This document shows positions 4,196-36,201 of a stretch of DNA of 64,000 nt, in pieces. Position 1 is the first letter of the stretch, and each line of letters opens with the position of its first letter. A program made the translations under genes and the position numbers. The DNA comes from Liolophura sinensis (lineage: Eukaryota > Mollusca > Polyplacophora > Chitonida > Chitonidae). The notes under the pieces are model-generated. The model saw nothing but the letters and a program-made list of their open reading frames with translations, was not told the origin of the DNA and did no database searches. Location: positions 68,422,984 to 68,486,983 of the forward strand of contig NC_088300.1 in assembly GCF_032854445.1 (NCBI RefSeq). Direction: 5' to 3'.

Positions 4196-4250
4196 ATGCA
4201 TATAATGGGCTTTATATTTGGGATTATACTGACGTGCTTACTGGCAAATG
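4196..4250 (+). CDS. RGM: RGM gene 1 exon 1 (signal peptide)
   Basis: Encodes a hydrophobic leader (MGFIFGIILTCLLANG core) and ends AAT G before a consensus GTGAGT donor. The phase-1 end joins exactly to exon 2, giving ...ANGLDD. The 10.8-kb distance to exon 2 makes this the least certain exon. Confidence 0.65.
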
Positions 4251-7200
4251 GTGAGTGTTTTCTCCATTTATTTTTATCTTCAAAGAAATTGATTTATTAA
4301 GGTTTTATTATATTATATTAAAACGCGCGAACGATTTCAAGTATGGCAGTGTCAGAAACAGGCTTTATAGTAAAGTCAACAGCAGTTCAGGTAACTGGTG
4401 TCACCCTCCTTCAGATCATGTTGAACTTCGCTCAATACACAGCTTCAAATTGGTTTTTTAAATATGATCGAACTATGGACTTTAACATTATGAACTAGAA
4501 ACAGTGTTCTAATTTTATTTTCCTAGCAAGAAAATGAACTTTAAACATATATCCATGCGTAGACTCTGCGCTGTTTAGGGACAGTGACTAAAGACAATTT
4601 TGGCAGCAAGTCTGACTGATTTCACGAACAGCTGAATATAGGCGACTAGCTAAAGGAAACAAACTATAGTTGTGTTCACTCCATGCAACACCCAGAATAC
4701 AACGCATGGATATCTACAAGTATTTATGCAAAAATGGCGGACTGAGAGATGCATGCATCTGTGTGTGAAGTAAACAGGCTCCTATACTGCATGCACGTGA
4801 TCGGGAAAGACTCATCCGGAAACTCTCCCGGGTTCGTATCAAAGCCAAGCTGGCTCTACACATCCTATTTAGAACATCGGGATAGGCCGGTTGCTCTGAT
4901 GTAATTAAGTGCAGTTTTCCTCCGTCGTTGTGCTGGTGAAAGAAGCTTTGCTCTGCCGAACCGCTAGACTCTGAGTCACACATAATTTTCTGTAATCAGC
5001 AGGCCGTGCAGTGCCTTACCCCAGGCAGTGTTGCAAAATGTTACGAGAACGAGTTCACGCTGTTCAGATGCACACGGTCATACATCTCATTAACGTCAGT
5101 TTGGAAGGCTTTCAATGTGTTAATTTTTCATTCTTCCTAGTTGACACAATGTTTAAACATTTTGTCTTTCCCTTTTCCTTTTTTCAGGTCTAAACCACAA
5201 CAATTTAGGGTCATGCTACCATACTCCTCACTAAACACCACTCTGTACCCTCGGTCTACATTATTGATTAGAGGTAGCAAATTTTGGATAAAAAATGTTT
5301 AACAGCCGCCAAGGTCATGTAAAGCCAATGTAGCGAGCGGCCCATACGCTGCGAGAAGTGTGTGATTCATTTCAATATAAGTATATATGCACAGCGCATC
5401 TTTCACTCTTCGATTCGCTGCTATGGAACCATATATATGTAAGTGCAATTTTCAGATACACTTCTTCCTCTTTGTATAGTACAACCAACCAGCGAGGGCG
5501 CCGTATGCGTTATTGGCGAATTGTTGCTTATCATCGTAGTTAAAATGCCTTTAGGTTTGTTTTATGTCGCATGCACTTGATACAGCGTAGGTTTGGTTTA
5601 TTTGATTTTTAAGTTTAAACAGATAAATAGGTCTACATTTAGTGTCCCTTGTGACTATAACCTTATGAACCATGTGTGGCTAGAGGTTTGGCGGTAGTTA
5701 AGGACTAGGTATAAAATCATACAGTGGCCCTGTGCATGTCAACATCTGCAAAATAAAAGATAATGGCTTATAACTAAGCCGTTATATATTTTCCGATAGA
5801 AGGGGCAGAATGGATCAGCGGTATGGTGGGGTGGGGGATGGGGGATGTGAGAAGTGTTTAGGAAGCGGCATCAAGCTTTTAATGATGTTATTCGTATAAA
5901 AAAATTTCAAAAATGTTTTATCAAGCTAACTTTTGAGAACATTTCTTTTGGATTAGGAGTCCGAAGTCAAAACCTAATCTTGAATGGCGAAAGAAGTTTT
6001 ACAACGAGCTGCGGGAACAGCTCATTATTGATCAACGCCTGGCGCTATGGAGGGGTGTGTCAAGAACTCCTTGAGGTCTGGTATGAAGACTCAGTCAGAC
6101 CGTCCTTCAGCTTTACGAACCAAAGACGACCTTTGGAGTACCAGGATCTTGCCACACGTTATTTTTGGGGCAAAATTTGCAAGTAAGTGACGAATTTGCA
6201 GCACAATGAACGTCAATAATTCTTGAAGATATTTGTTGTGAAATTAGAATGAAAGTAATAATAAGCGGAAAGAACATTAAAGTATATCAGAAACTACATT
6301 AGTTATGTTTTAAAACCTTGTTTTGTTTATTTATTTATTGATTGGTGTTTTACGCCGCACTCAAGAATAGGTCACTCATACGACGGCGGCCAGCATTATG
6401 GTGGGTGGAAACCGGGCAGAACCCGGGAGAAACCCATGACCATCCGCAGAATGCTAGCAGATCCCCCACGAACTTGTTTTGTAGTGAGTGATATTGTGTC
6501 ACATGCTTCAATAATACGGTGGTCCATATGGACCATGTTGACAATGGTGGATCCCAGTTTAGTTGGCATATAGTTTCCAGTGGGTTTTCAATCAAAGATT
6601 ACTTCCTGTCTGTTTGATTGTATTTTGATAACTGATTATATCCAAATAATAAATATAAACTAAGTATATAAATATTAAGAAGTGATACACACCACGCAAA
6701 ACATGTTCGAAACTGCATATTATCTTGAGTTTTCAATGGTTGTTTTGGAAGATTTATTTGTAAAGATGTTAGCTGTGTACGTTGTGTTACTGATCACTGT
6801 TTGTGAAGATGTTAGCTGTGTACGTTGTGTTATTGATAACTGGTTGTTTGTTAGTTGTGTACGTTGCAGGGGCGAAGGAAGCAATTTCAATATGGGGCAG
6901 GGGGAGGTGGGGGTAGTGTGGAGGAGTTCCAACAAAAAAGGCGAGGGTCCAGGGGCCGCCAAGGCCTCGGAAGCTCTGAAGGAGCGTTATCGCCTTAGAG
7001 ACGATTTGCCTTGTCTTAGATATGCTAATTGAAGTGTTATTGACGTCTAGCTCAGTTATTGAGGCTTTTACGTGGAGAACCACGGGTCAACAAAGGACAT
7101 TGTAACAATTTATCCAGAATTCAACATTAAATTTATGCAGGCTGGAGAAAGGTTGGTGTAGATTGACTAATACAAGCATTTAACTCGTATGGAGTAGAAT

Positions 7201-10200
7201 CGGTGGAAAGAAACATCCATGTTTTTGCTGGGCCTTGGTGGTAACCTTGCCGGCCTTTTAGCGCTGGCTTGCTTTTGATTGAAATCAATGTCACATACAC
7301 TTTTTGATCAAGCCTTTGGCTCAGAAAAAAGGCGTGCGTCTGATTTAGGGGAATTGTCAGTAACGCGCCAAAGTCGGTGGTTTGCTTATCTTTTCTTCAC
7401 TGATAAATCTTGCAACCCGTCCTAAGTGAAATGATTTTGGAATGACGATAAACCATAATGAAATAAATAACTCAACACCGATGAGTGCATATATTGTATA
7501 AATATATTAATTATTCTGCTTTTTGGGCTAAAAAGAACTGCAACGTCATCGCATTGATACACAGTCACTAAATTAGAAAATAAGATTGTGTTTGGAGACA
7601 AATTAGTCCACTTTTTTTCTCAAAATACACCGTAGATGATTTGCGCTTCCATGGGAGAATTGTATATATTAATATATGCTACTTCTATGTGTGTACTGAA
7701 AGTTAAAAGCAAGCAACCCTACATGAACCTATGTAATTTAGGCACATTATCAGTTTGGAAAAACAGGTATATATAACTTCGTGACACAATATCATGTGAC
7801 CTGGAAAAGCAAAATCTTTGAGAAATAATCAAAATTAAAACCTTACGACAATTGCATCTATGGTTGTATGGATGCAGAAAATATAAAAACGACACTGCAG
7901 AAAAATTGTTATTTTAAAAAGATCATTATTTCAGTACATGTGGCATGGACATTTGTACTACAAAAAAAAAAAACGCCTACATGAGTAACTCTCATGAAAA
8001 AGGAAAACAATAAAATGAACTATATGTCAAACTCCATGAAAAATGTCCAGGTGGTTGGATTTATTTTAAAGTTGCACTCCACGAAGTTTGTCAGGCGGCT
8101 CCATTTCAATCGACTGACGAGTCCCATTTGAGGGAGTTAACTCATAAACATACATAAATATGTAGGCCCAAGGAAGGAAAAAACATGTAGGCCCTATATT
8201 AATAGTAATGTGCACTGGGAAAGTTTACCATGTTTAGTTTACCGAGAAAATATATTTGCAATAGTGTGATGTTTTATTCGGCGAAGGGGCCTGTTTGTGT
8301 TACGAGTATATATAATTTCCGGAACGTGAAAAGTTGGGGGGGGGGGCAAAATATATGCTGCCTCCCCTCCACTTTTAAAAGCCCCCCCGCTTCCTACGCC
8401 CCTGCGTTGTGTTATTGATCACTGGTTGTTTCTAAAGAGGTTAGTTGTGTACGTTGTGTTATTGATCACTTAGTTTGTGAAGATCTTAGTTGTGTACGTT
8501 GTGTTATTGATAACTGATTGTTTGTGAAGATGTTAGCTGTGTACGTTGTGTTATTGATCACTGGTTGTTTGTGAAGATGCTAGTTGTGTACGTTGTGTTG
8601 TTGATCACTGTTTGTTTATGAAGAGGTAAGGCCTGTTGTGCTGAGGCTGGTTTGTTTGTCTGTGAAAATGTTAGGCGTGCTGTGGTATATGTCAGGGGTT
8701 GTCTTCGATTAGACCAGTCGTGTTGTGGTATATGTCAGGGGTTGTCTTCGATTAGACCAGTCGTGTTGTGGTATATGTCAGGGGCTGTCTTCGATTAGGC
8801 CTGTCGTGTTGTGGTATTGGTCAGGAGTTGTCTTCGATTAGGCCAGTCGTGTTGTGGTATTGGTCAGGGGTTGTCTTCAATTAGGTATTGGTCAGGGACT
8901 CTCTTCGATTAGGCCAGTCGTGTTGTGGTATTGGTCAGGGGTTTTCTGCGATTAGGCCTGTCGTGTTGTGGTAGTGGTCAGGGGCTGTCTTCGATTAGGC
9001 CAATCGTGTTAAGGTATTGGTGAGTGGTTGTCTTCGATTAGACCAGTCGTGTTGTGGTATTGCTCAGGGGCTGTCTTCGATTAGGCAAGTCGTGTTGTGA
9101 TATTGTTGACGGTTTGTCATCGATTAGACTAGCAGAGTTGTGGTACTGCTGAGGGGTTGTCTTCGATTAGACCAGTCGTGTTGTGGTATTGGTATTGATC
9201 TTCAGTCGTGTTGTGGTGTCAGTAATTCTGTTCGATTAGGGTAGTCGTGTTGTGGTATTGGTAAGGAGTTGTCTTTGATTAGACTAGTCGTGTTTTGGTA
9301 TTTTTGAGGGGTTGTCTTCTATTAGAGTAGTAGTGTTGTGGTATTGGCTGTTTTCTATTAGGGTAGTCGTGTTGTGGTATTGATGAGGGGGCTGTCTTCT
9401 ATTAGGGTAGTCATGTTGTGGTATTGGTAAGGGGCTGTCTTCTATTAAGATAGTCGTGTTGTGGTATAGGTAAGGGACTGTCTTCTATTAGGGTAGTCGT
9501 GTTGTGGTATTGATGAGGGGCTATCTTCTATTAGGGTAGTCGTGTTGTGGTATTGGTGAAGGCTATCTTCTGTTAGGGTAGTCGTGTTATGGTATTGATG
9601 AGGGGGCTGTCTTCTGTTAGGGTAGTCGTGTTGTGGTAGTGGTGAGGGGCTGTCTTCTATTAGAGTAGTCGTGTTGTGGTATTGATGATGGGGCTGTCTT
9701 CTATTAGGGTTGTCGTGTTGTGGTATTGGTGAGGGGCTATCGTCTATTAGGGTGGTCGTGTTGTGATATTGGTAAGAGGCTGTCTGCTATTAGGTCAGTC
9801 GTGTTGTGGTATTGGCGAGGGGCTGTCTTCTATTAGGGTAGTCGTGTTGTGGTATTGGTGAGAGGCTGTCTTCTATTAAAGTAGTCGTGTTGTGGTATTG
9901 GTAAGAGTCTGTCTTCTATTATGGTAGTCGTGTTGTGGTATTGGTGAGGGTCTATCTTCTATTAAAGTAGTCGTGATGTGGTTTTGGTAAGAGGCTGTCT
10001 TCCATTAGGGTAGTCGTGTTGTGGTATTGATGAGGGGGCTATCTTCTATTAGGGTAGTCGTGTTGTGGTATTGGTGAAGGGCTATCTTCTGTTAGGGTAG
10101 TCGTGTTGTGGTATTGGTAAGAGGCTGTCTTCCATTAGGGTAGTCGTGTTGTTGTATTGGTAAGAGGCTGTCTTCCATTAGGGTAGTCGTGTTGTGGTAT

Positions 10201-13200
10201 TGGTAAGAGGCTGTCTTCCATTAGGGTAGTCGTGTTGTGGTATTGGTAAGAGGCTGTCTTCTATTAGGGTAATCGTGTTGTGGTATTGATGAGGGGGCTG
10301 TCTTCTATTAGGGTAGTCGTGTTGTGGTATTGGTGAGGGGCTGTCTTCTGTTAGGTCAGTCGTGTTGTGGTATTGGTAAGGCTGTCTTCTATTAGGGTAG
10401 TCATGTTGCTATTGGCTACTGGTTGTTTATGAAAAGTTCAGTTCGTTGTGTTTAAGGCCATTTTTTCTCTGTGAGTGTTATGTTATGGCTTATCACAGTT
10501 GCTTTTCTAAACCTGCCCTAACAGAATTCACGCTGATGTTGATTTCCGCCAGCATATTGCTGGCCACCGTCCTGTAAGTGGAATACTCTTGAGTACGATG
10601 TAAAACATCAGTCAAATAAGTAGATGAACGATTGCTGTTTACACATTCAAATACGTTAGTGTTGTTTTTGTTAAGGTGGGGGCACACCGTAGGAGAATGT
10701 TACGACAGCCTCCTTCCCCAGTGTGAGGCCGGTATTGGGACTGAGCTTCTCAACAACCCCAGTTTCATCCCTCTAAAGAGATCACGCTGTTTTACTGAGG
10801 GGAGACCGCGTTGGTCATCGTTACAGGCTTTCTACCGCAGAACGTGCCAAGGCACAACAGTTAAACCCGACATTCAACAAAGTGAGTAGTCCTTCAGATT
10901 TTCATAAAGCGACATTTACAAGGATTTGGGAATGAAGCTTCAGTATGTATAACTGGCTTAAAACTTGGGGGAAATGGTAGTCTTTCAATACTGATTTATA
11001 GGCTTTCACGATATATTATACAGTTCAAACGACATTCTTTGTTTTGGAAGTGTGTATTAGGGTAGTTGAGAGGGCGTGGCAGGGGCCGCGGAACCGGGGG
11101 GGCTGGGGGGGCTGAAGCCCCCCCACTTTTTCCTAACCAAATGTTTTTTAAAAATGTCCACAAACATTCCAAGTTCAATGAAATTAAAATTTAGTTGCGG
11201 CATTATTATTGATCTGATATTTTACGGGGCCAGGGCCACATAGTCAGTACTGTACCGTAACGTTTAACATGACTCCATTTTCCATGGAGGCTTTGCGTCG
11301 CGATCTGATAAACAGTGGGATTGCAGAGGTACCGGATTTCGATACCGGTACGTTAAGACAACAACACCAATCACTCTTTATCTCTCTTTTGAGCTTTAGT
11401 TTTCACGGAAGTAAACTATAAAGTTGGCATCATAACATGCAGGCCTCGCTCTTTTAACAGACAGCGTAACACTGATGTTGCCATTTATCTAGTTTGAACT
11501 GTTTTTGTGCAAATAAGCATTTTACCGGATGTATAGATGGCACTGCAGGTCAAACCCCAAAAATACCTAGTGAAGTGTTCTGAGCCAAGGTGAACTTCAG
11601 AGGCGTTCCGGCAGCTATATGGTTGTATTACCCATACATGCAGCTTTGACGTAGTCTATGTCAGGTCTATAGATAGACTGAGTGTATCAGTGTCGCTTTC
11701 AAAAACGCACCAACATTTAAATATGTCACAAAACGCAGGAGCAAAAAAAAGCGAAGCTTACAGCCTGATATAGCTTCTTTTTTCGCCTCAAAATCACAGC
11801 GTGTTGACGAAATTCCGACACTCGCTGATGATGAGAGCCAGCCATGTACCTCACACGGGCAAACTGCGGAGAAGACCGAGTCCACTACGGCCGGTGAGCT
11901 TTCAGAAACAACACCTGCCACCCAAAAATCTGGTCCTAATGCCGATAGTCCCCATTCGTTGGATGGTATGGCTATGCGTGAGCCAGTCTCTACTTCGCCT
12001 AACCAGCCGTCAAATTTTAATTTCCCAAACAGGATGTTCGGGAAACAGCAGCGATCTTTTCAACCTCAGTGGTTCAAAGCCTTTTCTTGGCTGCATTATC
12101 TGGAATATAATGACACTGTATTATGTCACACTTGTGTCACTGCTGACGAGCAGCGCAAACTTGGTAACGCCAAATATGCTGAGAAGGCATTTCTCATAAA
12201 TGGATTTTCCAACTGGAAAAAAGCCCTTGAAAAATTCCGTGATCATCAGAAATCCCAGTGCCACAAACTGGCTGTTCAGAGCGTTGAGTTACCACAACAA
12301 TGTGGAGATATCGGAGAGCGGTTGGATACTGCACTAGCAGCTGAAAAAAAGTGGAACCGCTCCATTTTAGTGAAGATTTTAGAGAACCTTAGGCTGATGG
12401 GGAGACAGGGGCTTTCACTGCAAGGCAGCACAGACGAAGACTCCAATTTTATACAGATTTTGAAACTCAGGGCAATCGATGACCCATCTATTTTGAAATG
12501 GTTAGAAAAAAAACTGGCAAATATACCTCCCATGATATCCAAAATGAGTTACTCAAAATCATGGCCAACATCATAGTGAAAGATATTGCAACATCGATAA
12601 AGTCTGCTGGATTTTTCGCTATTCTCTCAGATGAATGCACAGATATATCAAACAAGGAGCAATTAACAGTCTGTCTGAGGTGGATTGACAAAGCCTTAGA
12701 GCCACATGAAGACTTTGTCGGGTTTTACCACATCCCTAACATAAACGCAGACACTATTGTCGGCGCTATTAAAGACACCTTAACAAGACTGGATCTGTCT
12801 CTCAATAACTGCAGGGGGCAGTGCTACGATGCTGGGGGACCTATGGCCGGGTGGAAAAATGGTGTGGCTGCTCAAATCAAGGCTCAATCAGTGAATGCAC
12901 ATTTCACTCACTGTCATGGGCACGCACTTAGTTTGGCCGTAAAGGATACAACTAGTGGCTGCAAGCTGCTACGCGATGCCATGGACACAACCAGAGAAAT
13001 CTGTAAACTAATAAAGCTTTCTCCTAAACGCCAGGAAAAACTGGAACAACTCAAGGCCGAGATGCAACTGGACACACCTGGGCTCAAAGTTTTGTGTCCA
13101 ACTAGATGGACAATCCGAGCTGAAAGTTACAAACGCATCCTAGAAAACTATGATGCGCTTCAGTTAGAATGGGATGAATGTTTGGAGGGCAAACTAGATT

Positions 13201-16200
13201 CTGAAATGCGAGCCAGAATAATAGGCGTGAAGGCTCAAATGGAGAGTTTTGATTATTTTTTTGCATTGAACTTGGGACAGAGGATATACAGTCATACTGA
13301 CAATTTGTCCAAAACATTGCAGCAGGGCAAACTCTCGGCAGTAGATGGTCAGCGTAACGCAGAGCTTGTCGCTAGTGTTCTACAGAATATGAGAACTGAT
13401 GACAATTTCAGTGCATTCTACGCTGTTGTCAACAGCAAAGCTACTGAGCACGAAATAGCTAAACCATCGCTACCAAGAAACCGGTCGGCCCCACGTAGAT
13501 TTGAAGTTGGTGAAGGGGAAGCAACGTTTCCCAGAACATGCGAAGATCGATACCGCAGGATATATTTTGAAGCGATTGACCTCTCTGTTAATGCTATCAA
13601 AAGCCGCTTTGAGCAGCCAGGGTTCAAGGCCTATGCAGAGATGGAGAGTTTGCTCATGAATTGCCTAAACGGAGAGGACTATGCGGCAGAGTTGGCTTTC
13701 GTTGAGAGTGAGTATAGTGGCGATATTGACCTCTTCCAATTTGAGTCCCAGCTGACACTGTTCAAGGCAATGTTGCCAAATGAGACTTACGCCTGTTTTC
13801 GAGATATCTACTCAGCTTATATTCAACTCAGCCTGGGGAATAAATGTTTGGTTTCAGAAGTTGAAGTTTTGATGAGACTCATTTTGGTCAATCCAGCCAC
13901 CGATGCTGTGGGTGAAAGATCCTTTTCTACAGCTGGCTTAAAGAGCTGGCTTAGATCGTCAATGAACCAGTGTCGATTCAACAATTTGGCAATTCTGACT
14001 GTCCACAAGGAGCGCACTGATGCCATAGATTTAGTATCCGTAGCTAATCAGTTCAGCTCCTTAAATGAGAATCGAGTAGCCACTTTTGGAACCTTCAAAA
14101 AGGGAGACTTTGACAGAGCTCATTAGGCCTAGATCTGCTGCGTAACCCAGATGAGAATGGCGACTTTGAATTGTGACTCTAGTTTTAGGCTGTTATGGTG
14201 CTTGTTTTGGAGGAAACTCACAATATCAGCATGCTTGTCACTTAAGCTGTTCTCAGCACTTGCATATTTACCATTGAAATTCTTCAATCTCTAATTAGCG
14301 AATATACAGAACTGCCGTTTAAAAAGTTACCGTATATACCGATTAGTCATTACAACCTTGTTGTGATGGTTGCTTGGTCGAATTAGGGTTTCCGTGTATT
14401 CAGCAATCTATTTCTGTCCTATATGATGGCGGGGAGACATTAGCCACTTTGTTGTTACCACCACAGGAGTTGTTACCACAGAGATATAGTCTCAGCGGTA
14501 TATTCAAGTTACTGCCAACGTTAATGTTTGTAATAGTCGTTTTAATCAATCTTAATGAAAGATTAAGATCCGAAATTTTGTAGTTCCTTAATTGTTTTCA
14601 AAATCCAACAACACCATTGGTGTTTCAAGTTATTGCAATTAAGTCACTTTTCTCGCTCATTCATCCTTCTCTTTTTAGCGCCGTAAATCGCCGAAATCGC
14701 GTCTCCGGCCATCTAGGGTTTCAGAGCTTCCGGGGCCTAGGCGGCCCCTGGACCCTCGCCTGTAGGGCAGGGATAATCGTGCCGGGCCTGCAGTTAGCCC
14801 CCCCACTTCTCAAATCGCTCCGCGGGCCCTGCGTGGTGATGGTGGGTTATTGAATATTGTTCCTTTAAGTAAGTTGCAAGAGCAGCAAGGCCAAAACAAC
14901 TGTAAACATTGTATTTATAAGAAGCTTTAGATAGTTTCCTAACCAATTGCTAGCCAAGTGACTGTGGCAATGTATTTTCAACCAATGTCTTTACATGTGA
15001 TGAGTAAGGCTTAAAAGGGAAGATACGATGTTTCACAGGTCTGGACGACGTCAGCTTTGATAATACCACAATGTGTCTCAACAGTACACATCAAATAGAG
15101 TTGTTCCGATGCATGGATATACTGAATGACGAAATTCAATTCCACTCCGAACGACAGTACCAGGCGTCCGATGTTTTCCGGAAGTCCATCAACAGGTAAA
15201 ACATTCATGAAAAAGATCAATATGGACATCAACCATCTTCATAAATTTTTGTCGATCTGCTAGACATTATGGTCATTTGTTTATTTGATTGAAGTAAACG
15301 TTCAAGTTTTCTCCGTTGTTAAAAGATTGACATTTATCCTTCACGCTAGTAAGTAGTAAATATGCCAAATGATTGTGCTTCATCCACTCTTGAATGATTA
15401 GTCATAAAACTGATATGTAAAAACATAACTAAATAACGGGCATGCAAACATACAGTGAAAAATTATGAACAAATTACAGAATAACAGACACTGTAATCCA
15501 TATTTACATATTTATTTATTTTATCGGTGTTTTACGCCGTACTCAAGAATATTTCACTTATACGACCGTGGTCAGTATTATGGTGGGAGGAAACCGGACA
15601 GAGCTCGCGGCAAACCCACGATCATCCGCATCTGCCAGACTTAAAATAACAGGTATACCAACGGAGTCTCTAAGTCATAAAAATAACAGGTATACCAACG
15701 AAAACTCTAAGTCATTACTATGTAAATACTAGGGATACAAACAGACATTTTATTTAAGCAATTAATTAATAACAGAGTCACAAATAGAGGCTGATTCATA
15801 ACTAAATAGCAGATACTAACGGACACTAAGCCATTACTTAATATTAGTATTACAAACAGGCACCACAAGCTATTACTAAATAATAGTATTACAAACGTGT
15901 ATCCCAAACCATTACTAAAAAGAAGGTTTGCAAGAAAACGCCGTATTAAGCATATTAATAAAAACAGCCATTACTAAACAGCTGTATTACCAACACACAT
16001 GGTAAGCCACTACTAAATGACAGGATTACAAACAGACACTGTGAGCCATTACGAAATACTACAATAACTGCAACAAAACAGATCCGTGAGCTATAACTTA
16101 ATAACAAGATACAACCTACGCCATAGGCCACAACTAACTTGCAGTAAACAGACAGACATCGTGAGCTAAATAGCTGCATTAAGGATAGACACTGTTACCA

Positions 16201-22200: not shown

Positions 22201-25200
22201 ACTCTGGTGAGACTGTGGCCACGTACTCTGGATCCAATGCCAACTTACCGACGGTGTTTGACAACACAAACATGACATCTCTGGGTGAAGGTAAAGACAA
22301 CTTTCACTGACTTGAAAGATTCACGTTAATATACATGTAGCACATTCCATTATGTTTCTTGTTTCACAGTGTAGAAGATTTTCTCACTTTAACATCCCTT
22401 TATGAGCCATATCAGAGTCGGTTAGAGTCTCATTTTAAGACCTTTTTATGAAAGATATTAGCGAAGGTCAGAGTCCCATTTTAACATCTCCTTGTGAGCC
22501 ATATCCGAGAAGGTCAGAGTCTCATTTTAACAGCTCATTGTAACCCATATCAGGGAAAGCCAATGTCTCATTTTAACATCTCCTAATGAGCCATATTAGA
22601 GAAGGTCGCTCTCATTTTAACATCTCACATTAGAGGAGGTCAGAATCCCCTTTCAATACCACCATAATAGAGGTCAATATATCATTTTAACACATCCTTA
22701 TGAGCCATATCAGAGATGGTCTGAATCTCATTTTAACATCTCCTCATGGGCCACGTCGGAGGAGGTCAGAATCTCATTCTAACACATCCTTATGAGCCAT
22801 ATAAGAGAAGATCAGAGTCTAATTTTAACATCTCTTTATCAGCCATATCAGAGGAGGTCAGAATCCCATTTTAACATCTCCTTGTGCGCCATGCCAGAGG
22901 AGATCAGAGCCTGATTTTAACATCTCCTAATGAACCATATCAGAGGTCAGAATCTCTTCGTCCTAAAAAGCCGGAGACTTATATGATGTCGTGTTCTTGA
23001 AGGTCAAGAACCTGACCTTTTAGGGTAACGGTGATCTTCCAATCGAATTTCTCAAATCAAGTTTTGAAAGATATATTAGAACGAAGAGGATTCATAAGTA
23101 ATTTTTGAATGTTGTTGTTTAGGGAATGACAAAGTGACGTTGAGCCTGAACAATTACCGTCAGGTAATGTTTGTCCAAGAATCCACCGGTATGGTCCTCA
23201 ACCTACGACAGTGGTCTGGTAATTATTTCTTCACGTTGAGGGTGGCCCAGAATGTCATCAAAAAGTCCCACGGTTTACTGGTTACTGGTTGTCCAGAGTC
23301 GGAGACAATAAGCAGATGTAAGTATTAACAACCGTTTCATATGTCTGGTCACATGACATTTTTTTTAAGTTATCGTGTGCTTCCTAGGAAGCATCAAGCA
23401 GCCTGACTACAATATAACATTTACTATTTGCCTCACGTCGCAGCTATTGTGAATTTGTGCTTTTCTCCAAATGTTCCAGTGGATTCATTCATTTTTGTTT
23501 CGTAAATGTTACAAGCTTCTCTGTTCCGGCGCCCGATGCTAACGAGGCGGAAGCGAGCCACAGAGGATGAGTGCGAGAATGCGTGTAACGCTACAGTGAC
23601 TGACCCCTACTTCCGGCAGACCTGCAAGTTTGACTGCTATGCCATGGACGACATTGACGTAAGTTTAGCACTACCCATATCACGTGTCACCCGCTAACAG
23701 CGTGACAATGTAACTCAGGTAGAGAGCTATGTGCTCAGTTATTCATTGTGTACGTCACAAATATGTCGGCATACTGGTAATGCTTTTTATCCAAAGTAAT
23801 AATGCCTAAATGCGCTTTCCGAACAAGACGGCAGAGCCCCTGGGAAACCCACGACCATCCGTGGGCTTCTGGCAGACCTTCCCGCGTACGGCCAGATAGG
23901 AAGCCAGCATGAACTGGACTTGAACTCACACCGACTGCATTGGTGGGAGGCTTCATTGCGCCCAGTTGGCGTGCTAACTCCCTCGGCCACAGAGGCCCCT
24001 TTATTGCAAAAAGAAGTTTAAATCCGTTGCCGATGAAAATATTATGTTTTACTTTTTGGTACCAAAAAAGGAAAAAACAAAAAACAAAAAAACTGATGGA
24101 ATAACTTTACGTCGCATACATGTTGAGGCACCACCTTGCGTGTCATCACACCGATAGAAACAGATAAATAAAATTAATTACACCTAATTAAATAGGCCAG
24201 GCATGATTGCATGACTGTGCCTAAAAATATCACTATCCGGGTGTAAAAATGTTCCTGAATATGGTAAATAATGCGTCTGGACTACTGTGTCCACTCGTCT
24301 AAATTACTGAGGCTAGTACTGCCAGTTCAATGGCTGTGTCTAATACTGCAGTGGGCTTCGTCCAATACCCTCGGCGACAAATAAAGCCACTGACTGTGTT
24401 CAGCATTAATGACTCAACGTGTCCTTTCCTGCATGTGGGTAGAGATAAAATGTTAATTAGTTTTATTCGTATATATCGATATATTATCTAATTGTTGTTT
24501 AACGTCGTGCTCAGTAATTATTCACTTAATTGGTAGCGGTCAGGTTTATGTGTTAAAGAAAGCCCGAGGGAAAATCAAGAGCGCTTGTAAACATACTGGC
24601 TTAAAGCTGACCGAGAGTTCGATTCAAACCTCCCCTAGCATAGCTTATTGACTAAGGAATGAATAAATGAATGCTTGTAATTTTACGTCGTACTTAGCAA
24701 TTTTTCAGTCATCTGGCGACGAAGAGTCATTAGGAGTCCATGCCGGGCAAAGTGCTGCCACAACTTAAGCATCATGCCGAAGACACCAGACATAACACCC
24801 AACGCGGTCACATTATACTGACACCAGAGCCATTCAGTCATGTTGCCTTGTCTTAACCTCTTGGTGTTGAGCGTCGAGCGAGGAGGCAATAAGTACCATT
24901 TTGAAACCCTTTTGGTATGACCCGACCCGGTTTGATCCCAATCCCGACTGCTCTGGCCATTAGATCGCTGAAGCTGTCAAATAGTCACCAAGCTAGAAGA
25001 GTTATTAGTCTCAAGATTTCTCAGCAGGCTGTAGGGAGTGATTTTGATTATATGTCATTTCTCTTTTTAAACTACTTATTGGAATGTATATTTCCCCTCT
25101 CGTTCCCAGGCTGGCACAAACATGACTGCGTCCGCTGAAGAGGACATCAGGATAGTACTTGAGATGGATGAGGAGATCATCGCTAAGGCCATCACTCCCA

Positions 25201-25346: not shown

Positions 25347-25500
25347 TCCCCTATTCCTCATATTGCCACACAGAGGTACCTCGTTGATTTTGGCAGCGTT
25401 AAGTTGTTAAAGTGAATATAAATTCAACCCTTAAGTCTGAAATGATTCACAAAAGACTTTTCGAAAAATGTTTAAAGAATTCTACATTGCTGGTCAACAG

Positions 25501-27464: not shown

Positions 27465-27584
27465 TCACTGTGAAGAGACAGACCGCCGTGAAGGTAGGTG
27501 ATGACCCTTGATACGCCCCTGGCGGAGTAGTGTGTCATACATCAATATCTCGTCAGACAAAGCTCCCACGCTGTTCTTGGCCAG
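27465..27584 (-). CDS. RGM gene 2 exon 8 (short, no GPI tail)
   Basis: Acceptor GCCCCTTTCCAG, phase 0. Encodes LAKNSVGALSDEILMYDTLL, comparable with GTNMTASAEEDIRIVLEMD in gene 1, then diverges and stops at TGA after 39 codons. The Thr/Pro stalk and hydrophobic tail are missing from this frame. Confidence 0.6.
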   Translation of the reverse strand: MAKNSVGALSDEILMYDTLLRQGRIKGHHLPSRRSVSSQ

Positions 27585-27817
27585 CTGGAAAGGGGCAAAA
27601 ATTTAAGAAAAATTAATGTTTATCGCAAGGATTATTGTATTTTTCTTTTAGCCAGTCTCCAATATACTTGCTACCAAATTGGCTTTCGTTAGTTACGCGT
27701 AACACCTCAAGATCTACTCAACGATGTTGTACGTCTGTATTATGGCAAGGAAAATGCAGTTAGAATAAGGATGGGGTAGATAACTGACAGGTTGACAAAC
27801 AGTTTAAATCAGAGTAC

Positions 27818-27960
27818 AAAACCCAGCTCCACATCCTCTTTGGCAAGGCAGTCAAGGATGCAGGCGGTAACGAAAGCTGGATTGGAGAGAGTGGTGTTAC
27901 AGGCTGTGGAACATTCCAAGTGACTGACAGCTCTCTTCACTCGAACAGGCATAAACTGGT
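27818..27960 (-). CDS. RGM gene 2 exon 7 (RVKR site)
   Basis: Acceptor GTGTCTCAG, 143 nt as in gene 1, phase 1 to 0, weak donor TTT/GTACTC. Encodes RVKR (27943-27932) and ECSTACNTTLSN, CILDCLAKED. Cys spacing matches gene 1. Confidence 0.82.
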
Positions 27961-28315: not shown

Positions 28316-28498
28316 CCAACGTGATAACCTTGTCATTTGGGCAACCATCGGGAAACAGGCCTGTGGACGTCAGAATGAGGCTCTCGGCCACTCGGGCCGT
28401 GAAGTAGTAGTTACCTCCCCACAGCCGCAGGACAATTACGATGCCGGTGGAGGACTGGACAAAACGCATTCTGTTGTAGGGGTCGTCGTGTAGCTGAA
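28316..28498 (-). CDS. RGM gene 2 exon 6
   Basis: Donor TTGG/GTACGT, 183 nt, phase 1 to 1 if the second AG of CAGAG is the acceptor. Encodes MRFVQSSTGIVIVLRLWGGN, YYFTARVAES and DGCPNDKV, the clearest match between the two genes. Confidence 0.85.
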
Positions 28499-28741
28499 CT
28501 CTGACAGCATATACGGCACACATCAGACATTAACCCAAGTTATACATCAACGGAAATAACTAGTTTGTAGATGAAGAAAGATGACAAAGGAAGGGGCTCT
28601 ATAGACACGAGTGTCAGTTATGTATTCATAGGGTGATGCAAGCCACGAGGACGCAGAGATAGAGCCCTTACCTTATGTGTTTAATCAATTTTGCAGTTTT
28701 ATATATTTCCCTTTTTCAAAACACATGTACGAAATACATAC

Positions 28742-28853
28742 CTGAACCTGCCACATTCATGTTGTTGTTAAATACAGCTGGGGGATTTCCACCCGACACG
28801 TCACAGACGCCCACCAACGTGCTACCGTCGAAGGAGTTAAAACTGTTCTTTAC
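28742..28853 (-). CDS. RGM gene 2 exon 5
   Basis: Acceptor TTTCCCTGAG, donor CAG/GTATGT, 112 nt, phase 0 to 1. Encodes KNSFNSFDGSTLVG and PPAVFNNNMNVAGSG, parallel to PTVFDNTNMTSLGEG in gene 1. Confidence 0.82.
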
Positions 28854-29678
28854 CTCAGGGAAACAGTTGAGGAGAATGTTTGATGATATCCTGTGTCTCT
28901 TCCACCCAAGCATTTTGTCTAAGAAATATTGTAATGGAGAAGCATGCCCAACGTAAATGTAAAGCTCTTTCTAATTGGATGAACTGCATTGTCTCACCAG
29001 TGTGGAAAGATTTGGATCTAAGGTGTTTATGAACACTGGTTCATTTCTGCCAATGTGATTATATTTTGTGGGCAAACTGCTAAAGTCTTACTCATTCACT
29101 GGTAGAGAACATTTGTGAATTCAGCATGGATCGGAGTCACGTGAAATAAAGATTATCATAAAAATCACTTTTCCATTTGACAACAAACATAAAACTCAGG
29201 GAAGCAATGTGGAAATAATGAAAGAAACAATTACAAAAAACAAGCAGTCAAAAAGTAATATACTGTATGAACACTTTCACGTTAAAATTTTGATTGAAAC
29301 CATTTTTCCAAAAAAGAGCAAGACGAGAAGAGCCAAAAAATCCTTCAAATTGGTCATTGACATAATAATTGTATAAATGCTAGTCTTTTATTTTGGGAGA
29401 AGTTTCTCTGGCTTTCTTTTCTGTTGTCATATGCCAAAATAATAATGAAATATTCCGTCTGAAACAATTTTGCTTTTTTAAATTCATTTATATTATATTT
29501 CTCTTTTGAGTATGTTGAATGTTAATATTTTATCTCTGTATAATTCCTACAAAGTGGTTATCTTAACACTTCCATAATATGGAATACAGCATGGCGATAA
29601 AGCTAGAGCAGCAACGACAATGTGACAGTTGGCAAATGGTCACACCTAACAGGTGAAATCGTATAATTGCTCAAAATG

Positions 29679-32600
29679 TCAACTCACACGTCCTCTGACG
29701 ACCGGTTTCAGTGAAGGCGGCACTTGTCTCAAGTCCCTCAACAACACATCTTCCAGGCTGAACGAGAACCCTCGTCCAAGGAGACGCCAAATTGTCCGTT
29801 CCAACATCTGCCACATGCTGGACGCAACCGGGCAATGCCACACAAGGTGTTCTACGGTCTCGTCCTGAGACGAGCACAAAGGACAGTCGGCAGATGCAGA
29901 CAGTCCTGCTCGGACTAACTTATGCCCGACCCACCACTGTCTGTGCCACAGCAGCCAAACAGCCGCCTTAGCTCGGTCGTCTACCCCAGACTTCCAGAGC
30001 GATAAAAATAAGTTCCTCCAGGACGATGGCACCGAACCCAACTGTTGCCACTTCTGGACTCCGGCGGAGTCGTTTTTGTCCACTAGAAGGATCCGATACC
30101 ATCTCCTGGAGGAAAGCTGAGAAAGGTCCTGTTGATTAACTTGATACCTTGTCCGGCTGGGATTCGTGACAGTATCCGGCAGATTGAACCATGCCTTCGG
30201 TATTGCCCTTCGCACAGCTGCTAGGTGACGCCAATTGACCGACTCCAGGACCAGCCACACTCTGGTGCCTCCATCCACAATATCCGACAATCGCCGGATA
30301 CTGGGTGTGGCCGTCTTACCAGGCATCAAGGGTCTTCCACTCTCTCCCAAAATTAGGGGATTTCCATACAAAGGCTGATCCAGAGCTTCCTGCCACGAAG
30401 CCGGATCAGCCTCAGTCCGTTTCAGCTTAAAGAAGGTTTTCAGATGGTCGAAGTACCACCGAGGAAGAAAACTGAAACGCGTTGGAGCTTTAAGCAACCC
30501 CACAGCGTGGGGTTCACTTTTCGACGCCACAAGCCTCCGGCCTACCTGAGCCCACCGAGACGAACTCAACATAAGCCGCTCCAAAAAAGCCAGTTTTAAG
30601 GACTGAACCTTCTTGGGGATATCTACGAGGCCTAGACCTCCACTTGCCTTGGGGAGGGTACAAACTTTGGAAGAGACCAGAGGCTTTTTACTCTTCCACA
30701 AAAATTCCCGACACATCCCAACTAATGTGTGCTCCTTATCCGCCGGCAAGTCAAAAACTGAGGCAACACAATTTCGACATTGCCAGCAAGTTTAATACAA
30801 GGACTCGCCCAACAATGCTTAGGCCTCTCTTGCTCCACCCCTTGAGGGTTCTGTCGACCTTCTGGATGCGGTCATTCCAGTTAACAGAAGCCGAGTTTCT
30901 GCACCTAGTTTTACCACCAAGAGTTTGACGTGATCCTGTGACCATTCAATACCCAAAGCAGTATCAGCACGACCCTTCCAAGCACCCAAGAATAACCCTT
31001 TTGACTTGGATCTGTTGACTTTGCAGCCAGACGCTTTCTGGTACTTGTTCAAGATCGTCTCGGCAATGTGGAAGTTTTCATCATCTCCCACGAAGAGAGA
31101 TGCGTCGTCGGCATACTGGGAGATTTTGATCTGTTCTTGGACATCAGGGACTCTCACTCCCTTCATGTCAGAAGACCTCACAACCACCCCAAGAACCTCT
31201 GCGGCCAGAACGTAAAGCAGAGGAGACAGAGTACAGCCCTGGTGAACTCCACGCTCGAGGAGAACAGGGTCACCAATAAAACCATTCACCATTACACGAC
31301 TTACAGGGGACTTGTAAAGAAGCCGGATCCAATAGGAAGCTATTGGTGAGGATTGACCTCCCTGGCACAGAACAGGTCTGATCACTGTGAACAAGAAGGC
31401 CCATCACGGATCCAAGTCTGCGGGTTAGCGCCTTTGTGATGATCTTATAATCGGCACACAAGAGTGAAATCGGCCTCCAATTCCGCAGGTCCTCTTTTGG
31501 CCCCCGCTTGTGAACGAACCTGACAAGAGCCTGCTGCATTGAATCGGTCAACTCACCCTGCTCAAAAGCCTCGTTGGCAACGTCCAGCAGGATAGGGCCT
31601 AGCACATCCCAGAAAGCCAAATACAGTTCCACAGGAAGACCATCGATACCGGGGGACTTGTTCAGCGTCATGGATTTTGCTGCAGAATGCAGCTCATCCA
31701 AAATGAATGGCTGTTCACAGATCGCGGCCTCCTGAGGAGGCAAGATCTGGGAGATCTGGGAGATCAACTCCTCCATGCAATTTCTCTCAACTCCCTCTGA
31801 GGTGAAGAGCCTCTGGTAGAAATCGCATGTGGCCTGCAATAAATCCTTGGTGGACCGGACTGAACGGCCATCAGGAGTTGCTACTTCGCGGATAAGTTTT
31901 TCAGTAGCACGCGACTTCTTCAAAGAACAGAAATAGCGAGTGGGGTTCTCGCCTTCCAACTGCCACTTGACTCTGGCACGAACCGCGGCTGCTTTATAAG
32001 CCTGTTGCTCACCAGCCCGCACTTTACGTTTTAGACCTTCCAACAGGTCAACTAGATGGGTCTCCCCATCACTAACTCTTTTAGAGGCCTTGTTGTAATC
32101 CTTCAGAAGTTTACGTTGAGCCCGTTTACGGCGACGTGCCCTAGCCACCCGCTTAAGCCCAGATTTACCCTCCTCCCAGAATTCAGCCGCGGACCTAAAA
32201 GAATCCCTCTCTGACATCCAAGCGGCAAAATAATCTTGCATGTTCTTGTGAAACTCTTCGTCATTCAAAAGGCTGACGTTGAGCTTCCAGAACCCCGACC
32301 TTTCTCTACCCAATCCCCTGAATCAAATTTGGCTGTGACCATAGTATGATCAGACATGGCAGTGGGTTCATGACCTGCATGAACCAGATGTCCAAGGGGA
32401 TCCTTGCTACAATACACTCTATCCAGACGCGAAGAGTGCGCACCAGTTGGCGAGGTCCAAGTGTATTCATGGGCATCAGGATGAAGGAACCTAAAAGTAT
32501 CCGACAGAGAATATGTTTTTATCAAAGTTGCCAAGGGAGCAGTAGACGAATCAGAAGCTACCGCGGCCGTGCTTCGCCTATCTATTAGGGGATCTACGAA

Positions 32601-33104
32601 GCAATTGAAATCGCCGGCCAGGAAGACATTGGTGTTTGAATCACCCAGAACACTTTCTAGACTTTGGAAAAACCGACGACGGTCAGGAACATATGTTGGT
32701 GCATGTACGGCGACAAACGTAAAATCAAAGCCTGAATACTCCGCCTCAACCTTGACCCAACGACCACCGGGATCAGTGACAGATGGCACTATGGTCCCCG
32801 AGGCGAGGAAAGAAGCAAGAAACACAATAGCCGTGCCGGCTCTATGATTCGAGCCGGAAGAGGAAAATACTTTCCCTTTCACAGCTGTTTCAAACCGGGT
32901 TACGTCATTGACGTCAGTAAAGTCCGTCTCTTGTAGAAAAGCAACATCTGCTTTTAATGACCTGAAGGTATGGCCAAGGGAAAATTGCTTCCAGTCCGAA
33001 AGCAAACCCTGACAATTTAGTGAGACAACATTCAGAGCCACTATAGATCTATTTAAGTTTTGTTTTTCTCGACTTTTTGTACAGGGCAGCCTTGCGTGCA
33101 GCAA
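29679..33104 (-). pseudogene. LINE ORF2 (endonuclease-RT), frameshifted and deleted
   Basis: Pieces in order: endonuclease 33104-about 32300 (VVSLNCQGL, FLQETDF, FLAGDFNCF, SRLDRVY, MSDHTMV); RT fingers and palm about 32313-31350 (KSPGIDGLPVELY, NWRPISLLCADYKIITKAL); frame change near 31345; then LYKSPVSRVMVNGF, GVHQGCTLSPLLY and QYADDASLF (YADD at 31115-31104); frame changes near 30900 and 30750; C-terminal part with CPLCSSQDETVEHLVWHC to 29679. The block holding the first catalytic Asp (motif A) is missing between VPGRSILTN and LYKSPVS. Confidence 0.85.
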
Positions 33105-34545
33105 AGTCCTCCTGGGACAGGTAAATTACTTTCCTCTGCTTCCTGACTTTCTCAATTTTTGAGTTGCGGCGCATGGTCCGATAATGGACTCCTAAAGAAG
33201 TGGAGACAGGGACTAAAACCTCGCCTTGATCGTTAGCGTATGTCGGCATTGACTCGTCTAGGTCTTCTCCCGGAAGGGAATCATCCATTTCCGACGTCGT
33301 GTCGTCCATGGGGATAACCGATCCAGAGGCTTCAATGCCGCTAACTTGGTCTTTTGGGGTGCTCCATAAGGACTCATTTACATCTTGTTTTGCAATTGGC
33401 TGGGAACAGGTAAATGGCTGACTCCACAAGTCTTGTGAAGAGTCTTGCTCGGCAGACTGACCGGTCGAGCTGTACGGAACCAACGGTTCAGTGAAACCCA
33501 ACGATACTTCCTCCTGTTTGACCTGGCTAGAAGCTGATGAAATACCATCATCTGCATTTTTGTCCACATCATTTTCCTCCTCTTTACCCCCTTCATTCCT
33601 ACCACCCTCCTGCCCGTCCTTACCATTATCCATAGCATCTTTATCCTTCCCGTCCTCTGCCTCATTCACCTCATTTTTATCATCATTACCCACTACATCA
33701 TTGCTACTCTCCTGTCCACCATCCGTATCCCCATTAACCATTTCACAATCATCCTCAGCCTCATTACTATCATCCGTGTTATCATCACTGTCATCCATTC
33801 CGTCATTATCTTCGTGCTCATGATCATCATTATTCAAATCCTCGTCGTCCTTATTACCATCGTCCTTATCATTACCATTATCATCCATCGCAACTGCTAT
33901 GTCATCTTCATCTCCACTACTTATCCCATTGTCGCTACTCTCAGTGTCCAGATTTTGAGGACAATTCTTTTGGAAATGACCTTCTTGCTTGCAAATCAAA
34001 CATTTGTTTTTCAGTGGGCAATCATTTTTGAGGTGGTCTGTCGCATGGCACAGGTGACAAGCTCGCACCTGCCCTCTGTACCAGACTGGTGACCGAAAAG
34101 ATGCTCCCACCCATATGGCTTCAGGAATGGTGGACGAAATGTTGCTCATCCATACTCTCCTAACCCCATTTTGCAAGGTTCTGTCGAACAGGTAGCATTC
34201 TCGTTCGACAGAGTGCACCGTTCCAAACTGTTTGAGAGCAGCTCCTATCCGTTCATCCGGAATCTCATAGGGGCTCTTCACCTTAACCAAAGTTCTGGAT
34301 TGCTCAACTTCATAAACCGCACAGTTTACTCCATTAAGCACCAGATCTTCATTAAGTAGTTTTTGCTTGACCTCCTCATTGGCGACAGTGACATTCCACA
34401 GATCCCCAGTAACGTGGACCAAACCCCTCAACACTTTGGATCCGTTGCCGATGCGTTCCTGCAACCCATGATACACGTCAATCGCTTTTACATTGCCTTT
34501 AATTCGCAATTTAAGGCTAAGAGGCCTTTTAATGCGGAAAGCCAT
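33049..34545 (-). CDS. LINE ORF1 protein (CCHC zinc knuckles, acidic tail)
   Basis: Intact 498-codon frame from the ATG in the context CCAGAATGGC. It has a basic RNA-binding-like N-terminal half, then CHLCHATDHLKNDC and CLICKQEGHFQKNC (both C-x2-C-x4-H-x4-C) around residues 190-230, then a long Asp/Asn/Glu-rich stretch and a Ser/Gln-rich C-terminus. It overlaps the start of ORF2 by about 56 nt. It binds the element's RNA in related families. Confidence 0.85.
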   Translation of the reverse strand: MAFRIKRPLSLKLRIKGNVKAIDVYHGLQERIGNGSKVLRGLVHVTGDLWNVTVANEEVKQKLLNEDLVLNGVNCAVYEVEQSRTLVKVKSPYEIPDERIGAALKQFGTVHSVERECYLFDRTLQNGVRRVWMSNISSTIPEAIWVGASFRSPVWYRGQVRACHLCHATDHLKNDCPLKNKCLICKQEGHFQKNCPQNLDTESSDNGISSGDEDDIAVAMDDNGNDKDDGNKDDEDLNNDDHEHEDNDGMDDSDDNTDDSNEAEDDCEMVNGDTDGGQESSNDVVGNDDKNEVNEAEDGKDKDAMDNGKDGQEGGRNEGGKEEENDVDKNADDGISSASSQVKQEEVSLGFTEPLVPYSSTGQSAEQDSSQDLWSQPFTCSQPIAKQDVNESLWSTPKDQVSGIEASGSVIPMDDTTSEMDDSLPGEDLDESMPTYANDQGEVLVPVSTSLGVHYRTMRRNSKIEKVRKQRKVIYLSQEDFAARKAALYKKSRKTKLK

Positions 34546-34905
34546 TCTGGTGGTAAAAAAAAAAACCTCGCCCAAAGGAGCTACCCGGCTGACACGTCCA
34601 ACTGTGTGGACGGCCAGTCAGGTACTCCACTGCGTTCTCAACCCTTTGACTGATCAACTGTCAAGTGACAGTGGCGAATGAACTTCGTGCAAGAGTGCAC
34701 GAATTTGCTGCCTGTTAGTGACACAAGCCTTTGTGTGCCCTGCTAGCCCGGGATGAATGGAGCTCGACCAGGCAAGCTGACCTTGTTCACTGTCCTATGC
34801 TGTAACCTGTATAGGCCTCCAACACAGGCCACGACAACCGGTGCCCGAGCCAAGCCGCGCGGGCTGGCCCACCGGCCACGCTGGCCAAACACCAAACGTG
34901 ATCAC

Positions 34906-35041
34906 TCTGCCAATTTCCTCGTTAACTCCTGTGATTGTAAAGTGCTTGTTCTGTATATAAGTCTGTTCTCCTGGCGCCGAGCAGGAGACTAGATTATCAG
35001 ACCAAGAAGTCCTCAGATGAGGGTCTCCGAATACACCCACA
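34906..35041 (-). CDS. RGM gene 2 exon 4 (GDPH) remnant
   Basis: Encodes VGVFGDPHLRTSW, VSCSAPGEQTYIQNKHFTITG; GDPH at 35028-35017. The homologous extension upstream (FSSSQRC, matching FSSIIRC in gene 1) is preceded by TGA and lacks an acceptor, so a CTGCAG acceptor inside the ancestral exon is the only good one. The 3' end is uncertain because LINE sequence begins here. Confidence 0.75.
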
Positions 35042-35267
35042 CTGCAGCGTTGGGATGACGAAAAAGATCACTTTACCTTGTGATGTACGTGACTAGGGCA
35101 AAAGCAAGTGAACCACTTGACACCAGCTACCGGTACCAGGTACCAGGCTCTCCTCTACGACATAAATTTTACAGGGATGTATTGAGATGCATGCGCAATC
35201 TTCTTGTCAGTGGTCAACGGACTGAAGCGAGCTAATTCAACTAACTAAATGTGCTTATAATTATTTA

Positions 35268-35440
35268 CTTATGCGATTGCAAGGTGATTTACGCCGTTCT
35301 CAAGAATATTTCACTAATACGACGATGGCTGTCATTATTGTGGAAGGAAATTAGACAGAGCCCGGGAGAATCCACGACCAACCGCGGGCTGCTGACAGAC
35401 GGACAGAAGGGCCAGCGTAAGCTGGGCTTCAAAATGAGAA
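35268..35440 (-). repeat. SINE-A copy (minus, diverged)
   Basis: GATTTACGCCGTTCTCAAGA, ATATTTCACTAATACGACGA and CCACGACCAACCGCGGGCTG. Lies between exons 3 and 4 of RGM gene 2. Confidence 0.8.
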
Positions 35441-35531
35441 TAATTATAACAGGAAGCCTCACATATGAATGTGAAATATCAAACAGGCTTAATACGGGGA
35501 GGGCAGGGAGGGGAGAGGGGGTGGATGTTAC

Positions 35532-35677
35532 CTGAGTAGTTTTCCTGTCCACGGACAACTGGGTCTCATCGATGAAGCCCGACATTTACAGGTTAATGGT
35601 GTGGTAGAAGACATTACGGGTGGCTTGGTTACAAGGTGATTGGTTCACCACGCTGTAGATGCACCTTAAAATATCAC
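35532..35677 (-). pseudogene. RGM gene 2 exon 3 with in-frame TAA
   Basis: From TGC onward it has exactly 44 codons, as in gene 1, with SPCNQATRN and GFIDETQLSVDRKTTQ, but codon 26 is TAA (35588-35586). The strong polypyrimidine acceptor GTCTTGCAG puts the exon out of phase with exon 2; a weak TTTTAAG acceptor at 35665 would restore phase. Confidence 0.8.
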
Positions 35678-36044
35678 CTGCAAGACTGATGTTAGAAGGA
35701 AAAAAAACTCTACATATGAAAAGACCTACGTATGAAAAACATTGTATCTTAAAACCTAAATGCAAGAGGTTGAATCCCGTGTTTACCCCACCATCTTAAT
35801 CTCCACCCTGCCCAACCCCAGGAGTATTATAATGAAGTTTCAAACCACAGCTGATTTTTTTTTGTTTTCCAAACTTAAGTAATTCAGCTGGTAATTTCAC
35901 ATAGGTGATGTGAATAAATATTGCTAGTACCGGTATCATAGACTCACGAAAGCCTTTGGTCGCGCTTTATGTGTTCGAGTCTGGAAAATGTCATCAAATC
36001 TATCATTATATACCACGTTAATTTTATTTAACTTTATAATTTAC

Positions 36045-36201
36045 CCGCTCAGAGCTGAAATTTGTTCCATTTGAGACACGTCAAAGTTGTTAGAATTGGC
36101 TGCAAAGTCCTCGCTCAAGGAGCGCAAACATCGGTACATGTTACGGCGTAGTACTCCATTCAGACTCTGGAAACTCGGATCGAACGATGTGTCATCCAAC
36201 A
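36045..36201 (-). CDS. RGM gene 2 exon 2
   Basis: Acceptor TAATTACCAG, donor GG/GTAAAT, 157 nt, phase 1 to 2, as in gene 1. Encodes VLDDTSFDPSFQSLNG... and RCLRSLSEDF. The single Cys aligns with FRCMD in gene 1. Confidence 0.8.

Follow-up and report, generated by a model that had tools for sequence, protein, structure and literature searches.

Repulsive guidance molecule (RGM) acts in signalling at the cell surface. In human RGM proteins, the N domain is essential for binding bone morphogenetic proteins (BMPs) and the C domain is sufficient for NEO1, as set out in the part of PMC7354924 that deals with the two domains. One vertebrate member, RGMc, has a convertase site, and cutting there yields a soluble form; RGMa and RGMb are without this site in the portion of PMC2323002 that compares them. 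Among invertebrates, DRAG-1 of C. elegans is presented as an RGM ortholog in the relevant text of PMC8595726. Here we describe a window of 64,000 nucleotides from the chiton Liolophura sinensis (contig NC_088300.1, here C6, C6:68422984-68486983), in which two RGM-related genes face each other on opposite strands. Judged by genome searches and a tree, the two belong to a cluster of four RGM-derived copies: copies I and II lie upstream of the window, copy III is on its plus strand and copy IV on its minus strand. Our reading is that copy IV is dead, that the ordinary RGM of the animal is a separate gene, and that the cluster encodes a convertase-released product; we would give this reading as a whole a probability of about 0.7. 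Positions given without a contig are window positions.

The genome (609 Mb in 632 contigs) was searched with the copy III protein. There were 22 matches, consisting of the window exons, exons A-G of copy II, part of copy I and, on contig C2, one exon in broken form. Copy II is situated just upstream of the window (C6:68407147 to 68421452) and is complete and open, with GT-AG splice sites. Copy I (C6:68393532-68398111) is open from exon B through the stop, likewise with GT-AG sites; its exon S was not found. A search of the flanks at E 0.05, covering 30 kb to the left of the cluster stretch and 20 kb beyond the right end of the window, yielded no additional copy, although exons of III and IV recovered copy I as a positive control.

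Three of the copies match the family model RGM_C (PF06534) well above its curated cut-off of 27 bits: copy III as a spliced protein with 72 bits (5.3e-20), copy II with 67.5 (1.2e-18) and copy I with 73.9 (1.4e-20). RGM_C is the sole match in I, II and III, and the general VWD model is unmatched in them at E up to 1. When copy III was searched against PDB (E up to 10), one match was obtained, RGMB (6z3m, 1.9e-5). The match extends beyond the vWD domain into the C-terminal region. All four copies have GDPH at the start of the vWD domain. Hydropathy indicates an N-terminal hydrophobic core (signal peptide) in II and III, and a C-terminal hydrophobic tail in I, II and III. From these similarities, the cluster proteins are RGM-derived, with one intact and one degenerate member in the window.

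The ordinary RGM was found elsewhere. Of eight candidates scored in a genome search with RGM_C, two were reported as matches; both lie on contig C8 and are exons of a canonical RGM. This gene matches RGM_C at 7.5e-85 and RGM_N at 6.9e-13, and its identity with human RGMB is 40.6% (362 columns). By its domains, the gene on contig C8 is the ordinary RGM of this animal, and the window genes are not it. The intron between exons C and D of the cluster genes is the vWD intron of the canonical gene, in the same alignment column and also in phase 0. The acceptor ahead of the canonical mature protein fits phase 1, like the exon A acceptor. Relative to canonical RGM, the cluster genes have additional introns and have lost the GAWPLI stretch. 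The reporting of only the canonical gene from eight candidates means that an exon-wise Pfam search with PF06534 overlooks this divergent cluster. No report of RGM duplicates in molluscs was present among the literature matches listed.

A second distinctive feature of the cluster is an RxKR site between the vWD domain and the C-terminal part. It is found in all four copies (RMKR in I, RRKR in II and III, RVKR in IV) and neither in canonical RGM nor in the RGMB stretch used. The site is followed by a twin CX3C, again in four of four copies; canonical RGM has single cysteines here, and the twin motif is absent from the RGMB stretch used.

The cluster differs from canonical RGM in the N domain as well. 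RGM_N (PF06535), a three-helix bundle with three disulfides, has no Pfam match in copies III, IV, II or I (copy I without exon A), while the canonical RGM, used as positive control, gave the match stated above. Profile alignment (hhalign) of the cluster N domain with RGM_N had a probability of 0.8% and an E-value of 0.07, a weak match that coincides with the N-x-x-Y-H motif region. As aligned, the cluster copies have lost at least four of the six RGM_N cysteine columns. No credible PDB match was obtained with two of the N domains (best E 0.54). In comparisons with the canonical N domain, 408 of 500 shuffles were as good as copy III and 64 of 500 as good as copy IV; against that of RGMB, 176 of 500 were as good as copy III. 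Because the N domain is unrecognisable and at least these four cysteine columns are lost, BMP co-receptor action of the cluster proteins is doubtful. By analogy with the human proteins, binding of a Neogenin-like receptor through RGM_C is possible, and would be the more likely remaining activity.

A number of observations speak against our reading. The N domain of copy IV scores 46 against that of human RGMB, a value reached by 1 of 500 shuffles. In the alignment, II and IV retain the motif N-[hydrophobic]-x-Y-H. The N domain of the cluster may therefore be a derived RGM_N, and BMP binding would then be possible. A profile built from II, III and IV was used to look for exon A of copy I, and no candidate was accepted (best E 0.037). 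Finally, a relative-rate test with copy I as reference counted 24 changes unique to copy IV and 20 unique to copy III in 246 columns (P 0.65), so a faster copy IV is not shown.

Another explanation is that the window genes are ordinary duplicated RGM co-receptors for BMP, merely diverged in sequence. The RGM_C match, the retained GDPH and the intron common with the canonical gene are what it would lead one to expect, as are the weak RGMB match of the copy IV N domain and the N-x-x-Y-H motif of II and IV, which falls near the presumed start of the third RGMB helix. However, a canonical RGM with both domains is present on contig C8, RGM_N is found in the cluster neither by Pfam nor convincingly by hhalign, the cysteine columns are lost, and the C domains of the cluster copies are only 21-23% identical to that of canonical RGM. 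We consider this explanation unlikely. The initial annotation had described a duplicated BMP co-receptor of the RGM family. The relationship to RGM is borne out by RGM_C, and the best match is not to another vWD family, but the co-receptor part of the description is not supported, given the separate canonical gene and the unrecognised RGM_N of the window proteins.

Less probable still is an origin of the window proteins in a different vWD family, with no more than a resemblance to RGM. Their C domains are just 21-25% identical to canonical RGM and RGMB, the N domain is unrecognised and GAWPLI is lost, all of which would fit such an origin. Against it stand the matches of I, II and III to RGM_C and not to the general VWD model, the single PDB match being RGMB, the extension of the similarity past the vWD domain, and the vWD intron common with canonical RGM.

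We now return to the preferred reading, in which the window holds one intact and one degenerate RGM-derived gene. The intact one, copy III, spans 4196-25349 on the plus strand. Its eight exons join as a single open frame of 417 codons with consistent phases and GT-AG introns:

4196-4250, plus strand: exon S, start codon and signal peptide MHIMGFIFGIILTCLLAN, phase-1 donor gtgagt
15039-15195, plus strand: exon A, 157 nucleotides, open, GT-AG
19440-19593, plus strand: exon B, 154 nucleotides, SPCNQAT
20309-20506, plus strand: exon C, 198 nucleotides, self-cleavage motif GDPHL, where the vWD/RGM_C domain begins
22176-22290, plus strand: exon D, 115 nucleotides
23123-23317, plus strand: exon E, 195 nucleotides, STG...GCP
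23516-23658, plus strand: exon F, 143 nucleotides, convertase-type site RRKR and twin CX3C (ECENAC...TCKFDC)
25110-25349 (coding to 25346), plus strand: exon G with the stop, Thr/Pro stalk and a hydrophobic C-terminal tail of the type of a glycosylphosphatidylinositol (GPI) signal, by hydropathy only

Exon S (MHIMGFIFGIILTCLLAN|GT) is well suited as a first exon. When 15 kb were scanned for a start codon with a hydrophobic stretch and a phase-1 donor, two such codons came up, both within this exon. Copy II has a similar exon S (MHIMRFIFGITLTLLLAH), and the DNA of the two copies is 76.5% similar over 213 columns starting upstream of the ATG. As predicted from these exons, copy III is a complete, open gene model.

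The introns of copy III contain other elements. In intron 1 there are hAT-like transposase frames (11677-14126, plus strand) that match DUF4371 at 1.2e-13, together with a hAT dimerisation match below the cut-off. The two strands differ strongly in composition over 8000-12000 (GC skew 0.28, AT skew -0.22), and peptide-like frames are repeated there at about 9445-10408, perhaps as a minisatellite. In the intron between D and E, a degenerate repeat with units like gaggtcagaatctcattttaacatctcc is seen by eye at 22360-22960.

On the minus strand the same exons are readable from 36201 down to about 27468. This is copy IV, listed here in the direction of reading:

36045-36201, minus strand: relic exon A, 157 nucleotides
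35532-35685, minus strand: relic exon B, 154 nucleotides, one in-frame TAA (CAA in copy III)
34906-35067, minus strand: relic exon C, 5' part, GDPHL, with the target-site copy ATTGGCAGA at its end
29055-34905, minus strand: long interspersed nuclear element (LINE) within exon C, 5851 nucleotides, with an ORF1-like frame, endonuclease and partial reverse transcriptase over several frames
28998-29054, minus strand: relic exon C, 3' part, with the second target-site copy (29054-29046), in frame, phase-0 donor gtgaga
28742-28853, minus strand: relic exon D, 112 nucleotides
28316-28505, minus strand: relic exon E; a nearby AG (exon from 28500) gives 185 nucleotides instead of 195 and shifts the frame
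27827-27960, minus strand: relic exon F, 134 nucleotides, RVKR and twin CX3C, donor lost (ctgggt, gtaagt in copy III)
27468-27584, minus strand: relic exon G, where the phase-0 frame ends after 39 codons and the hydrophobic tail is in a different frame

A tblastn search of the window with the plus-strand protein finds the minus-strand exons C (6e-15), E (5e-13), B (8e-11), F (3e-6) and A (0.025), and these E-values rule out a chance similarity of the two window genes. In six exon pairs, III and IV agree at 129 of 297 aligned residues. By Pfam, the 5' part of exon C alone reaches 25.3 bits against RGM_C, slightly under the cut-off, and the other copy IV pieces have no match to this model.

The LINE was recognised by CCHC knuckles in the ORF1-like frame (by eye), by an endonuclease match (1e-16) and by a partial reverse-transcriptase match (1e-5), the last below the curated cut-off. 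It is flanked on both sides by a 9-nucleotide target duplication, ATTGGCAGA, at 34914-34906 and 29054-29046. When a single copy of ATTGGCAGA is retained, exon C of copy IV reads in frame for 70 codons up to a phase-0 GT. Apart from this 9-mer, the two stretches that were compared (201 x 905 nucleotides) have no word of nine or more nucleotides in common. A 9-nucleotide match somewhere in such stretches is not unlikely by chance. However, chance appears to be a poor account of the ATTGGCAGA pair, because it is placed exactly at the homology break and leaves the remainder of the exon in frame.

Copy IV has further faults. For exon C no usable in-frame acceptor was seen; a TGA stands directly upstream in frame, and the next AG has the wrong phase. 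The two features of an unprocessed pseudogene, retained introns and several disabling changes, are both present. Judged by these lesions, copy IV is a relic broken in multiple places. Its death is probably late. The synonymous differences between III and IV are saturated (proportion 0.80, against 0.39 for nonsynonymous sites), nucleotides differ at 48% of aligned coding sites, and the differences are distributed 131/110/187 over the three codon positions. If an equal number of differences had fallen randomly on copy III, 11.5 stops would be expected, while one is seen; in 2000 such trials the stop count was never below two. Because stops are so few, copy IV was probably under constraint for much of its history after splitting from the line of II and III, and died later. 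Since the relative-rate test shows no faster copy IV, this dating rests on the few stops and not on rate.

Could copy IV instead be a working gene, its lesions being assembly errors or the sign of unusual splicing? Most of its exon frames are open and similar to copy III, the frame is preserved across the empty site of the LINE, and unique changes are not in excess. However, the TAA in B, the C acceptor, the LINE in C, the E acceptor, the F donor and the shifted G are independent lesions, of which a base error could account for one but not for all. A working copy IV is accordingly hard to defend, and we hold it to be very improbable.

The preferred reading of an intact copy III beside a dead copy IV agrees with much of what had been annotated for this locus. 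The identical exon order on the two strands stands (15039-25346 on the plus strand, 36201 to about 27468 on the minus strand, with the minus exons recovered by tblastn). So does the distance of about 2.1 kb between the 3' ends, with the plus stop ending at 25349 and the minus phase-0 frame stopping near 27468, and likewise the description of a convergent pair of one intact gene and one degenerate gene, since III is open and IV carries the TAA, the splice faults, the LINE and the shifted exon G. Exons 2 and 7 had been called identical in length, which is at most half right: A (157 in both) and B (154 in both) agree, but the RxKR exon has 143 nucleotides in III and 134 in IV. The LINE that splits the minus-strand GDPHL exon, the two copies outside the window and the ordinary RGM on another contig had not been part of that description. 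The inverted local duplication that had been proposed needs revision as well. The facing pair is real, but there are four copies, the closest pair, II and III, stands head to tail, and IV split off earlier.

This order of events comes from a tree of six sequences, namely the cluster copies, canonical RGM and RGMB as the only vertebrate RGM. Its topology is ((II,III),IV),I with ultrafast bootstrap values of 86-100, so that the minus-strand copy diverged before the head-to-tail pair II and III. A long branch separates canonical RGM and RGMB from the cluster. A recent inverted duplication can be rejected, as the synonymous differences between III and IV are saturated and no listed inverted repeat pairs RGM exons. 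These repeats are the best 25 of 27 ungapped inverted repeats of at least 30 nucleotides in the first 40 kb, and most of them are one repeat resembling a short interspersed nuclear element (SINE). That the convergent arrangement is functional, for example through antisense control of III by transcripts of IV, would suit the 2.1 kb between opposite-strand 3' ends but is extremely improbable, as the two copies are too different for good base pairing and none of those 25 repeats pairs RGM exons.

Copies II and III were compared over 404 codons, giving a synonymous divergence (dS) of 0.32, a nonsynonymous divergence (dN) of 0.13 and a dN/dS of 0.41 (bootstrap 0.31-0.57). Because of this ratio, both appear to be kept as proteins under purifying selection. 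The dS is uneven across exons, from 0.10 in E to 0.66 in A (Fisher P 0.0015 on rounded counts, for a contrast picked after the values had been seen). Gene conversion may be the cause of this unevenness.

Taken by their motifs, and by analogy with RGM and RGMc/hemojuvelin, the intact copies would encode a secreted, GPI-anchored protein. This protein would cleave itself at GD|PH within the vWD domain, and a furin-type convertase would then cut at RxKR, freeing the vWD part from a membrane-tethered stub with the twin CX3C. A GPI-anchored, self-cleaving, convertase-released RGM-like protein is the likeliest role that we infer for the cluster. More tentatively, and as something less likely than not, one can picture a lineage-specific family built from RGM, in which the self-cleaving vWD domain was kept, the BMP-binding domain abandoned, and both an additional cysteine staple and a site for convertase release gained. 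Such a family would supply a secreted ligand outside BMP signalling and would have expanded and died locally, while the ancestral RGM stayed single-copy. If this is true, convertase release as in vertebrate hemojuvelin arose a second time. Provided that it is expressed, the cluster is a test made by nature of which RGM activities require the N domain, and it may add a second example of convertase release among RGM proteins.

Outside the cluster, the broken exon on contig C2 is an exon B of the cluster family with one in-frame stop (26545738-26545589, minus strand). Some 2.6 kb beyond it, at about 26542202-26543001 (minus strand), there is a 75-nucleotide tandem repeat of 11.4 copies, the unit of which resembles the 3' end of exon E. 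By this resemblance the locus is perhaps a relic of the cluster family that was partly converted to a minisatellite.

Other elements in and around the window are the following. The SINE-like repeat occurs in many places and in both orientations within positions 1-40000, for instance at 532-661, 2667-2735, 6338-6461, 15501-15630, 20912-20994, 21849-21929 and 36709-36762. At 38938-39436 a tandem repeat with GAQKRTVTNSNDDCYRLRVRLLIMALSF units is open on both strands, and at 43584-45105 (minus strand) pieces of another reverse-transcriptase element are seen by eye (ENHRPISVLPCFSKILEKTVS). The frames of an apparent multi-exon gene are located at 57383-62997 (plus strand); Pfam gave nothing above cut-off for two of the frames, and PDB nothing credible for one. 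By eye, very similar frames recur inverted at about C6:68495200-68500700 (minus strand), 8-14 kb past the end of the window, and the two sets look like a second local inverted pair in the region.

In comparison with the known systems, the cluster resembles vertebrate RGMA and RGMB in RGM_C, as also seen in the PDB match of copy III to RGMB (6z3m, 1.9e-5). RGMa and RGMb lack the convertase site in the text of PMC2323002 concerned with it, and in RGMB the N domain, which binds BMP/GDF ligands, has three helices and three disulfides, as that section of PMC7354924 describes. RGMc/hemojuvelin is like the cluster in having a convertase site toward the C-terminus, and in the account given in that part of PMC2323002 the cut produces a soluble, C-terminally truncated form. 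A common origin of this site and the RxKR of the cluster is not indicated, and the canonical RGM of this genome is without the site. The PDB chains named hemojuvelin alone (6z3l_B and 4ui1_C) matched in the N domain only, so the RxKR likeness is established for the motif, and the likeness to RGMc does not imply iron regulation by the cluster proteins. Canonical RGM of the same genome differs from the cluster in having RGM_N, the canonical cysteines and GAWPLIN, in having no RxKR, and in the two large coding exons found for it. It is like the cluster in RGM_C/vWD, GDPH, the hydrophobic C-terminal tail, the phase-0 vWD intron and the phase-1 acceptor.

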